This document shows, in pieces, positions 32,711-37,509 of a DNA stretch of 64,000 nucleotides. This stretch comes from a virus. The notes under the pieces were generated by a model. That model was not told the origin of the DNA, searched no databases, and saw nothing but the letters and a program-made list of their open reading frames with translations. Each line of letters opens with the position of its first letter. Positions within the stretch are counted from its first letter, which is position 1. The position numbers and the translations under genes are program-made. The stretch is from the IMG/VR virus record IMGVR_UViG_3300040801_003393, positions 1 to 64,000 of that record, one strand, 5' to 3'.

Positions 32711-33244
32711 TTAAAAATTTACGCCCTGTGTACTAAATGCCTTAATAGAATCGCTATTATATTTAAAAAACATGGTAAATTCACTAATAATCCAGATACT
32801 ATTTGTACTATCGCTGGAGTATTGCATGTAGTTATCAAGACCGTTGAGGTGCTCGAAAATTTTCTTTTCTACTGCTACAAATTTACCTTGACGATTAAAC
32901 TTTAAAAACATAATGTTTAAATCGCCAATGTCGGCTGCGTCGTATACCTGTCCTATCCATTTATCAATGGTTGCTGACTTGCCGGTATAGAGTTGATGCC
33001 ATGTAAAGTCCTTATAGAACTTTGCTTCTGAATTAAAATATTTCCATTCCAGTGGTGGAATGATATCACCTTTAAATGCGCGAATTTGGCCTTCATGTAA
33101 AAACTCTTTTCGGTGTGCGTTTTTACCACCAACATATGCACCAGAGCTGGGAGTGCGGAGGAATGATTCGTTGTACAATTTGCACATGAAATCAGCTACT
33201 TCTTTTTCCCACCCTGATCCTTTTATTTTTGACGGTGACGGCAT
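32711..33244 (-). CDS. PD-(D/E)XK nuclease, resolvase-like candidate
   Basis: 177 aa. E13 in GSGWEKEVADF, D60 in FKGDIIPP, and E73-x-K75 in SEAKFYKDF fit the E ... D ... ExK active site of archaeal-type Holliday junction resolvases and other PD-(D/E)XK nucleases. The start at 33244 shares a base with the stop of the radical SAM gene (TAATG). It is the last gene of the gp46 operon, which suits a role in recombination or DNA processing. T4 uses a different enzyme (endonuclease VII, gp49). A restriction-like or repair nuclease is an alternative. Confidence 0.68.
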   Translation of the reverse strand: MPSPSKIKGSGWEKEVADFMCKLYNESFLRTPSSGAYVGGKNAHRKEFLHEGQIRAFKGDIIPPLEWKYFNSEAKFYKDFTWHQLYTGKSATIDKWIGQVYDAADIGDLNIMFLKFNRQGKFVAVEKKIFEHLNGLDNYMQYSSDSTNSIWIISEFTMFFKYNSDSIKAFSTQGVNF

Positions 33245-34341
33245 TAGTTTGTCTCGTATCCTACACCATAATCAAAATCGACATATTGTTGTTGACATTT
33301 AAGATTGCACTCTACCCATGATTTATTTGGGTTATTCCAGGTATTAGTTAACGTTACCCATTTTTCGTCATTTAAGATTTCGATTAACGATCGTGTTTTA
33401 ATAGAGAAGTATTTTCTATTGTTTGAAAAAAAGCTATTTTCATATTTAATAGTTTTAATACCATCGCTTAATTCTTTATACGGGAAACTAACCCAGCTAC
33501 AAGGATGCACTACCCCGTCGGCACTTATATACATCCCCCGGTTACCAACTAAACACAAAGGAACTATATGTTCAGAATATTCTTTTTGGATTTTTTCAAA
33601 TCGGGTTTTATTGGTTTGCATGTACCTTTCGTTTTGGATTCGACGATCGGTTAAATGTTCTACATGGCGCTCATATCGATGCGTCGCAGAGATAAATTCC
33701 TCCCTTGGTTCGAGTGCATCGTCAATTCCATCGTACGCCTCGCCATACTTGCTGCCAAATTTTGTGCTTTTAGTCCATTGAATGGCGTCGCATCCATTTT
33801 GAATAGCCAATGATCTGATACTATCTTGGTGGTCCTGATTAAATCTAAAATATATCGCTGCCCAATTTATAAATGCCGAACTTCGATGACCCATGATGCG
33901 CATACCAGCCATGATAGAGTCAAAGTCTGAGTTTACTCGATATAAGTTATTAGAATCGTGGTCGTAACCATCAACACTAAAATTAATAGAGTCGTACTCA
34001 TTTAGAATCGATGCAAGTTCTTCCCACCAGGCGGGTTTACGATAACTACCGTTAGTAATGGTAAATGTATGGCAGCTCGGCTTAACCTCTTTAACATATT
34101 GAACAATTTCTAAAAATTCTTTATTGTAAATTGGATCACCAACATCACCACAGAAGGTAAACCGTTGTACATTAGATATAATAAATTCTGGAGTAAATGC
34201 TTCCTTAAATTCTTTTAGAGAAATGTCTTGGTTGAGCCACGGAGTTTCAGGGAATTCAGTACGCGGACATCGAGGGCACTTTAAAGTACACCGACTGCTT
34301 AATTCTATGTGCCAATGATATAATTGCCAGTTTACTGCCAT
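33244..34341 (-). CDS. Radical SAM protein with C-terminal cysteine region (third of three)
   Basis: 365 aa. The 4Fe-4S motif C18-x3-C22-x2-C25 is in SSRCTLKCPRCPRTEF. FCGDVGDP near residue 69 replaces the usual GGEP. NFSVDGYD follows, as in the radical SAM barrel. The C-terminal part has LCLVGNRGMYISADGVVHPCSW and ECNLKCQQQY, which could hold an auxiliary cluster of the SPASM/twitch type. Such enzymes make radical changes to peptides, sugars or cofactors. The substrate is unknown. It overlaps the dehydrogenase-like gene by 10 bases and the nuclease gene by one base. Confidence 0.88.
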   Translation of the reverse strand: MAVNWQLYHWHIELSSRCTLKCPRCPRTEFPETPWLNQDISLKEFKEAFTPEFIISNVQRFTFCGDVGDPIYNKEFLEIVQYVKEVKPSCHTFTITNGSYRKPAWWEELASILNEYDSINFSVDGYDHDSNNLYRVNSDFDSIMAGMRIMGHRSSAFINWAAIYFRFNQDHQDSIRSLAIQNGCDAIQWTKSTKFGSKYGEAYDGIDDALEPREEFISATHRYERHVEHLTDRRIQNERYMQTNKTRFEKIQKEYSEHIVPLCLVGNRGMYISADGVVHPCSWVSFPYKELSDGIKTIKYENSFFSNNRKYFSIKTRSLIEILNDEKWVTLTNTWNNPNKSWVECNLKCQQQYVDFDYGVGYETN

Positions 34342-35755: not shown

Positions 35756-37509
35756 TAGTTGTTCTCGTATGTAGTAAAACCTGATTCTTTTACTACCCGC
35801 ATGGTATTATGAACTCGACTAATTAATTCGTCACGATGAGAGACCAGCCAAACTGACTTTCCACGGTCGCGAGTCATACGTTTAAGAATCTTAATAGCAG
35901 ACTCAACACCGCTAGTATCTAGGCCACTATCAACTAGTTCATCAATAAACAGCAAGTTGATATGGTTGTATAACGACTCCCATACGTCTCGGAACGCCCA
36001 TGAGAGTGATAGTATAAGCCTATTCCTCTCACCGCGAGATAAGTTATCAAAATCTAAGTCTCTACCTAAATCAGTAATTTCTACAGACAGGTCTGATAAG
36101 AATTTTACTTGATGTGGCAAACCAATCTCTTCTAGATAGTAACCTAATCTACCATTAAGATAGCTTAAATTTTGCTCAATAATCTTTTTACGAATAAAAG
36201 AATCCTTGCTAGTTAACAGGTTTAGCAAGAAGTTCTGATGCTCTTGTATTTCACTTAATCGATTTAGCTCGGTATAGTCAATTTCTTGTAATCCCTTTTT
36301 CCGCATATCTTCAATTTGTTCTTCATACGGATCGGTATCAGCTAATGCAACCTCAAGCTGGTGAGTTAATTTGTCAAGCGTATGCTTATGATCATAAACT
36401 TCAGTAATTGTAGAATAAATGGTTTTGGGCTTTTTACCTAGAACCCCAATCTCTGCAAGTCTTGCAATATGTTCTTCTTTTTGAGTTTCATTACTTAGGT
36501 ATTGTAATGCTTGCTTTGACAACTCTTCTTGTTTAGCAGCACGAATTTCTTCCTGTTTAGAATCGTGGATCTCTTGCCCGCAAGCGTGACACTTATGTTC
36601 TTCAATATGTTTTAGGTCATTCTCCAAAGAAAGTACACGTTTGTTAATATTTTCATTTTCGCGATCAATTTGTGATATCCATTTATTGCATTCATCAATT
36701 GCGGATTTGGATTTATTGTAATTTTCCAATGATTGATGTGCAAGTAGTTCCGCATCAATGTCTAGATCTATTAAATTTTCTAATTGTAATGTAATATGGT
36801 CAACGGTTTCTTTATTTTTAGCAATCCACATTTTCTGGCGTCTTTCTAAGGAAAGAATTTGCTCTTCAATATGTTGATTGGCCTTGATCGTTGCCTGTAA
36901 GCGGAATTCTTCTTCCTTGATTGCGTTTTTGGTTTCCTTGTTTAACTCTTTGAGTGCAACTGCTTTTTCTGATAGTATAGTAATACCGAGCAATTGCTCA
37001 ATGATATTTCTTTGATCATTGGTGCGCATTGACAAGAATGGCTCAGAATATGTGTTTAAAGCTAGAATATGCTTAAACATGTCGTGAGACATTTGCAGCA
37101 ATGCTTCGATTTCTCTCTGTGTGTCGCGACTATCTCCTTGTGCCTCGTCATCCTCATTACCTAATTCTACAGAATTTTTATAGAATTTGAATATAGCAGG
37201 CTTACGACCACGATGTATTTGGTATTCATCGTTGCCAATGGAGAAGTTAACGGTAATGAGCATGTTCTTACCGTTAGTCTTATTAATTAGATTGTCGCGT
37301 TTGATATTAGTTAACGCCTGCCCATATAGAGCATAACTTAAGGCATTTAGAATAGTAGTCTTACCGGTACCATTACGTGAACCGTCTGCTCCTAAATCTA
37401 AATTTTCACCTAACACAAGAGTTAAGTCGCCACGATCAAAATTTATTGATTGGGTGGCATTACCAACACTCATGAAGTTTTTTACAGTTAAATCTTTGAT
37501 ACGAATCAT
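35755..37509 (-). CDS. 46: Recombination endonuclease subunit gp46 (Rad50-like)
   Basis: 584 aa SMC-type ATPase. Walker A is at 44-51 (SRNGTGKTT). Two coiled-coil arms flank a zinc hook C307-x2-C310 (KCHACGQ). The ABC signature LSRGERNRL, Walker B LLFIDEL and the H-loop VSHRDE are near the end. With gp47 it resects DNA ends for recombination-dependent replication and host DNA breakdown. It has its own sigma-70-like promoter, whose predicted start is at or next to the ATG; no ribosome site is seen. It heads the block with the radical SAM genes. Confidence 0.96.
   Translation of the reverse strand: MIRIKDLTVKNFMSVGNATQSINFDRGDLTLVLGENLDLGADGSRNGTGKTTILNALSYALYGQALTNIKRDNLINKTNGKNMLITVNFSIGNDEYQIHRGRKPAIFKFYKNSVELGNEDDEAQGDSRDTQREIEALLQMSHDMFKHILALNTYSEPFLSMRTNDQRNIIEQLLGITILSEKAVALKELNKETKNAIKEEEFRLQATIKANQHIEEQILSLERRQKMWIAKNKETVDHITLQLENLIDLDIDAELLAHQSLENYNKSKSAIDECNKWISQIDRENENINKRVLSLENDLKHIEEHKCHACGQEIHDSKQEEIRAAKQEELSKQALQYLSNETQKEEHIARLAEIGVLGKKPKTIYSTITEVYDHKHTLDKLTHQLEVALADTDPYEEQIEDMRKKGLQEIDYTELNRLSEIQEHQNFLLNLLTSKDSFIRKKIIEQNLSYLNGRLGYYLEEIGLPHQVKFLSDLSVEITDLGRDLDFDNLSRGERNRLILSLSWAFRDVWESLYNHINLLFIDELVDSGLDTSGVESAIKILKRMTRDRGKSVWLVSHRDELISRVHNTMRVVKESGFTTYENN

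Follow-up and report, generated by a model that had tools for sequence, protein, structure and literature searches.

Phages hold many radical SAM genes without known purpose, and the locus studied here raises the question of whether several such genes, set beside a recombination gene, form one biosynthetic route or share little more than a position. The window, that is, the whole stretch of DNA analyzed, comprises bases 1–64000 of a 110,538-base IMG/VR virus record and has a T4-like gene content (gp55, gp47, gp46 and others). An earlier note on this DNA described five genes in a row, overlapping by 1–10 bases, in the order gp46, radical SAM, SDR-like, second radical SAM and PD-(D/E)XK nuclease; coordinates and sequence confirm both the run and its order, with all five genes on the minus strand. 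That description omitted a third radical SAM gene of the same run, here called rSAM3, which precedes gp47. In the direction of transcription, the genes are as follows:

38594–40105, minus strand: rSAM3, a twitch-domain radical SAM protein (NCBIfam NF033640)
37547–38578, minus strand: gp47 (SbcD-like)
35755–37509, minus strand: gp46, an SbcC-like recombination subunit (PHROG 77, SbcC-like)
34853–35755, minus strand: rSAM1, the extra radical SAM enzyme, 300 aa (CX3CX2C, sub-threshold PF04055)
34332–34856, minus strand: SDR, a small short-chain dehydrogenase of type B, ~170 aa (from its relatives and predicted fold)
33244–34341, minus strand: rSAM2, a radical SAM/twitch enzyme, 365 aa (PF04055 and PF13186 SPASM)
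32711–33244, minus strand: nuclease, a PD-(D/E)XK phage endonuclease of the PDDEXK_15 type (PF24608)

The overlaps from gp46 to the nuclease measure 1, 4, 10 and 1 bases, the 10-base overlap being that of the SDR and rSAM2 genes. Gene overlap as a sign of special coupling was discarded as stand-alone evidence: in the window genome, 25 of the 47 same-strand neighbors spaced within 60 bases overlap, so overlaps are ordinary there and alone are no sign of a pathway. The nuclease scores 78.9 bits against PF24608 (cut-off 27). In its position, most gp46-type relatives have a GIY-YIG protein; the related loci L059 and L066, like the window, have a PD-(D/E)XK protein there. rSAM3 scores 250 bits against the N_Twi radical SAM model NF033640 (cut-off 170), and an rSAM3-like gene lies between gp47 and gp46 in some relatives; five further radical SAM genes of the same genome are located outside the window. 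The gene run ends in a noncoding stretch of ~600 bases that carries a Polynucleobacter-1 RNA (RF01718, 54 bits; 32437–32581, minus strand), and a strong copy of this RNA (118 bits) occupies the matching place in L047 (9544–9679, plus strand).

We compared the locus with about 165 related viral loci, all metagenomic; they were selected for their similarity in two samples of 80, and the counts given here are valid for those samples. A profile search with rSAM2 in IMG/VR gave at least 556 confirmed relatives, of which the best 80 were kept, and a further search, in which a distant member of the rSAM2 family served for the ranking, led to a sister clade. Open reading frames were called mechanically, genes in the relatives were named mostly by similarity to window genes, and duplicate contigs were taken out only where noticed.

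In 80 of the 81 loci of the SDR clade (noticed duplicates removed), rSAM2 is immediately preceded by an SDR gene, the single exception being L043, where the locus starts at a contig end; seen from the other gene, rSAM2 follows the SDR in 80 of 82 cases. As a control, the radical SAM genes of these loci that are outside the clade are directly preceded by an SDR in 1 of 214 cases (twitch, 1/79; sister-clade rSAM2, 0/79; other, 0/37; B12-type, 0/19) and directly followed by one in 5 of 214. The SDR gene overlaps the rSAM2 gene in each of the 80 pairs, by exactly 4 bases in 52 of them. The pair occurs in three settings: (i) after gp46, which is the commonest; (ii) between gp33 and gp59/gp32; and (iii) between a PHROG glycosyltransferase gene and an A-type Fe-S carrier-like gene. 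The real unit is two genes, SDR and rSAM2, kept together in three genomic settings. The "small biosynthetic route" of the earlier note is therefore well supported in its combination of a radical SAM enzyme with an NAD-type enzyme and has to be amended in its composition, only SDR and rSAM2 being conserved. Likewise, the coupling to DNA-processing genes that it described holds in so far as gp46 or gp33/gp59/gp32 lie beside the pair, and is qualified by the pair also lying beside the Fe-S carrier.

Other gene pairs were seen in the loci compared. In L004 (5999–7604), the interval between gp47 and gp46 holds a 156-aa SDR-like gene that overlaps a twitch radical SAM gene, the only SDR–twitch pair among these loci. 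A second mobile pair, situated before or after SDR-rSAM2 (L006 4859–6935, L042, L051, L072 and L088), consists of a B12-binding radical SAM protein, for which the closest model is the PhpK P-methyltransferase at a score far below cut-off, and a protein of ~130–200 aa with no assigned family. Finally, two small genes lie side by side between gp47 and gp46 in L009 (2039–3129), L010, L084 and L096 and resemble, by eye only, the halves of a glycosyltransferase; the second of these has no Pfam hit.

The window SDR matches no Pfam or PHROG family and carries a variant TGxxGxA motif, and its type A relatives reach PF00106 at 62–66 bits. The features that define an SDR (Rossmann fold, TG...G and Ser...YxxxK) are nevertheless present: residues T6, G7, G10, S87, Y106 and K110 are invariant (79/79), and the predicted structure (pLDDT 94.7) matches classical SDRs and GDP-fucose synthase. 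Two types can be distinguished, type A of about 200 aa with N-C-A-G, and type B of about 170 aa with N-C/N-A-Y/W and a shorter central part. Mean identity is 36% among the SDRs as against 59% among the rSAM2 proteins. On the rSAM2 tree the SDR type changes six times, with at least five changes forced by supported branches, and the same six are recovered in bootstrap trees. In L085 and L095, which have SDRs of different types, the upstream gene is 91.4% identical, rSAM2 94.0% and the downstream gene 84.8%, as compared with 27.2% for the SDR; judged by these identities, the two loci represent a one-gene SDR exchange between near-identical flanks, and they provide the cleanest case. Taken with the tree, this indicates that the SDR was replaced by an SDR of the other type about six times while rSAM2 stayed. 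Since the active-site residues are invariant in spite of the 36% identity and the swaps of type, a functional SDR seems to be under selection, though not one particular SDR.

rSAM2 belongs to the radical SAM superfamily (34.7 bits against PF04055, cut-off 29.5) and has a SPASM/twitch domain (25 bits against PF13186, cut-off 21.5). The cysteines of its CX3CX2C motif, C18, C22 and C25, are invariant (79/79), and C263, C281, C345 and C349 are invariant as well. Four extra cysteines beyond those of the SAM cluster suggest one auxiliary Fe-S cluster, of which these residues are presumed to be the ligands, in a twitch-like arrangement. For the predicted structure (pLDDT 90.6), Foldseek ranks BlsE first (E 8e-12), followed by viperin, SkfB, anSME and PqqE, and a second aligner gives Z-scores of 18.8 for SuiB, 18.0 for SkfB, 17.3 for BlsE, 17.2 for DesII and 14.8 for BtrN; SpeY is also among the structural matches. 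As far as a predicted model can tell, these neighbors share the fold of rSAM2 without settling its substrate. The family models place it no more closely: rSAM2 has no match to NF033070, the model of the AprD4 family of diol dehydratases, at E ≤ 1, and it is not among the matches listed for the BlsE model TIGR04466 (cut-off 400) or for NF033640, against which a sister-clade member scores 29.9 and 32 bits, respectively.

The sister clade offers a natural control, in that its SDR-free enzymes are found at the same gp46 locus. None of its 79 rSAM2 genes is accompanied by an SDR; they follow gp46 directly or with another radical SAM gene of ~290 aa in between, and elsewhere within twitch radical SAM arrays near tail genes. 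On a combined tree (a quick LG tree, unrooted), presence or absence of the SDR is a single change with a support of 100. At residue 282, 55/55 sister-clade sequences have Cys and 55/55 SDR-clade sequences have Ser. Given with the sister-clade state first, the other fixed differences are Trp8/Tyr, His120/Asn, Lys268/Arg and Arg287/Pro, and the clades also differ by an insert of ~11 residues after Tyr288 and a C-terminal Thr-Asn. Because the SDR clade is one clade, these differences may reflect shared ancestry rather than a link to the SDR; the clade-specific positions are candidates for a change accompanying the SDR, and one branch is not enough to prove causation. An alignment of rSAM2 to solved structures, meant to place Cys282, covered the core only.

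We tentatively propose, giving it a little less than an even chance, that SDR and rSAM2 constitute a two-enzyme redox module in which rSAM2 makes a carbonyl and the SDR reduces it. The substrate of rSAM2 would be a small hydroxylated molecule, probably a sugar or a nucleotide-linked sugar; the enzyme would abstract a hydrogen atom from one of its carbons and leave a carbonyl product that the SDR would reduce with NAD(P)H, the net outcome being a substrate that is inverted, deoxygenated or otherwise altered. Different SDRs would be interchangeable, each setting the final stereochemistry, and the repeated exchange would then have occurred because the SDR need only reduce a ketone. The presence of the peptide maturases SuiB and SkfB among the structural neighbors, at equal or higher Z, speaks against this proposal, as does the gp46 setting, which is without clear sugar genes. 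Should the proposal be correct, a swap of a separate reductase can rewire the outcome of a radical enzyme. In any case, one phage radical SAM family is reduced here to a minimal, strongly conserved two-gene unit, and the SDR-free control together with the natural partner swaps makes the chemistry of the module directly testable.

How the SDR-free sister enzymes would operate is the subject of a hypothesis that has less support than the main reading. These enzymes could finish the reaction alone, the hydrogen atom being given back by Cys282 or another residue, and the SDR clade would have lost Cys282 and hence need a reductase. Cys282 of the sister clade would by analogy be a hydrogen donor like that of NeoN and HygY: PMC10991966 gives Cys249 as the hydrogen donor of the NeoN epimerase, and the title of a HygY paper cited there speaks of a latent dehydrogenase activity that emerges once one Cys is mutated. 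Cys282 adjoins Cys281, a probable cluster ligand, and may for that reason be a ligand itself, not a hydrogen donor; the donor might also be Cys64, which both clades keep. A wider scenario is that of a split epimerase: having lost the cysteine that gives back the hydrogen, a radical SAM enzyme would have turned into a dehydrogenase and taken on an interchangeable NAD(P)H reductase. Exchange of a single small gene would then alter the stereochemistry of a sugar or nucleotide made by the phage, probably to evade host receptors or nucleases. We consider this scenario speculative and, taken as a whole, improbable.

The redox proposal has to be weighed against other readings of the same loci. The order of the reactions could be the reverse, with the SDR acting first to oxidize an alcohol to a ketone, which rSAM2 then rearranges, decarboxylates or dehydrates. 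The SDR precedes rSAM2 in gene order in 80/80 pairs, and BlsE, which heads the Foldseek matches, decarboxylates an oxidized nucleoside sugar; both would suit this order. Gene order is, however, little informative on reaction order, and the repeated replacement of the SDR type fits a finishing enzyme better than one that makes the exact substrate of rSAM2, for which reasons we find this reading rather unlikely.

It is distinctly unlikely that rSAM2 is a SPASM-type maturase of a peptide or protein, acting on a phage or host protein, with the SDR as the finishing enzyme. Although the highest Z-scores are those of SuiB and SkfB, and there is a weak NCBIfam similarity to peptide maturases, rSAM2 begins right at the radical SAM core, which leaves no room for an N-terminal leader-binding domain, and its four extra cysteines are not the full SPASM set; nor was a conserved small precursor gene noticed beside the pair. 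The replication and recombination operons of two settings (gp46/gp47; gp33/gp59/gp32) could instead point to the synthesis of a modified nucleotide for phage DNA. We regard this as quite improbable, since no nucleotide hypermodification set was found beside the pair or among the remaining genome ORFs examined, the third setting adjoins the PHROG glycosyltransferase, a QueD-like enzyme and the Fe-S carrier, and a sister-clade homologue is located in a twitch array near tail genes.

As regards rSAM1, it scores 21 bits against PF04055, which is sub-threshold, and has the CX3CX2C motif; its top matches, which are viperin-like, span residues 15–127 only and are far below cut-off. A related-loci search with rSAM1 returned no relatives, and a DNA pattern search returned one locus, L182, in which the relative is solitary, beside GTP-cyclohydrolase-like and MazG-like genes (names from reading the sequence). 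The ~290-aa radical SAM protein encoded between gp46 and the sister-clade rSAM2 was considered as an rSAM1 relative and belongs to a different family. The gene-neighborhood comparison that the earlier note had called for links SDR and rSAM2 across loci and finds rSAM1 in no other SDR-rSAM2 locus compared. That rSAM1, SDR and rSAM2, adjacent and overlapping in the window, all act in one pathway, as first read, is highly improbable and already largely contradicted, given that rSAM1 does not travel with the pair, that its one clear relative is solitary and that overlaps are common in this genome. The three-gene route is rejected, and rSAM1 and the nuclease are cargo separate from SDR-rSAM2.

The same genome encodes two Fe-S assembly proteins, IscU with 222.6 bits (NCBIfam cut-off 192.4) and ErpA with 141.6 bits (cut-off 117):

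L020 17900–18277, minus strand: IscU, above the NCBIfam cut-off
L020 14741–15064, minus strand: ErpA, above the NCBIfam cut-off

These proteins of the phage's own could supply the Fe-S clusters. This phage genome also has a full-length gene for a Gram-negative porin (PF13609, 135.6 bits; L020 10411–11391, minus strand). A second array, at about 73–82 kb of the genome, holds five tandem twitch radical SAM genes (L019 9705–17261, at 73.7–81.3 kb of the genome); it comes after tail-type and glycosyltransferase-like genes and is followed by carbamoyltransferase, DegT aminotransferase and epimerase genes. A similar twitch array is seen in L011 and others, with a sister-clade rSAM2 inserted within it.

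The pair is found in uncultured aquatic T4-like phages. When three members of the rSAM2 family and the SDR of the window were searched by tblastn against 50,697 phage records, nothing matched at orthologue level, the best matches being partial and 21–29% identical, and the SDR-rSAM2 pair is in none of these records. A scan of 84,980 bacterial genomes gave two matches only: a sister-clade-like copy standing alone in a MAG contig (L100) and a fragment at a contig end. Radical SAM clusters are reported for the Campylobacter phage CP220 (PMC2853527), radical SAM cassettes for pelagimyophages (PMC7029224), and radical SAM richness with Fe-S assembly genes for marine T4-like genomes (PMC5332604); the excerpted text of these three papers does not describe the SDR-rSAM2 pair. 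CP220 gp082, encoded between two radical SAM genes, was considered as a possible SDR and rejected, as no Pfam family matches it and by sequence it resembles a glycosyltransferase.

The earlier note recognized no known pathway with this set of genes, and indeed none matches. The likenesses to known systems are partial. In having many radical SAM genes and Fe-S assembly genes, the genome resembles, according to the excerpts cited above, CP220, the pelagimyophages and the marine T4-like genomes with IscU/ATC. BlsE, a cytosylglucuronate decarboxylase, is the best Foldseek match of rSAM2, yet the TIGR04466 score of a sister-clade member lies far below cut-off. Like the twitch sugar enzymes BtrN, SpeY, HygY and NeoN, rSAM2 combines a radical SAM core with a small Fe-S domain; the similarity is distant only, the substrates of those enzymes are aminocyclitols or aminoglycosides, and the excerpted literature describes no reductase partner for them. 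In its proposed division of labor, the pair is like AprD4/AprD3 of apramycin C3 deoxygenation, where, according to PMC5461906, the radical SAM enzyme AprD4 works with a dedicated NADPH-dependent reductase partner, AprD3. It differs from that system in the missing NF033070 match, in organism and setting and probably in substrate, and in that the reductase is here exchangeable.
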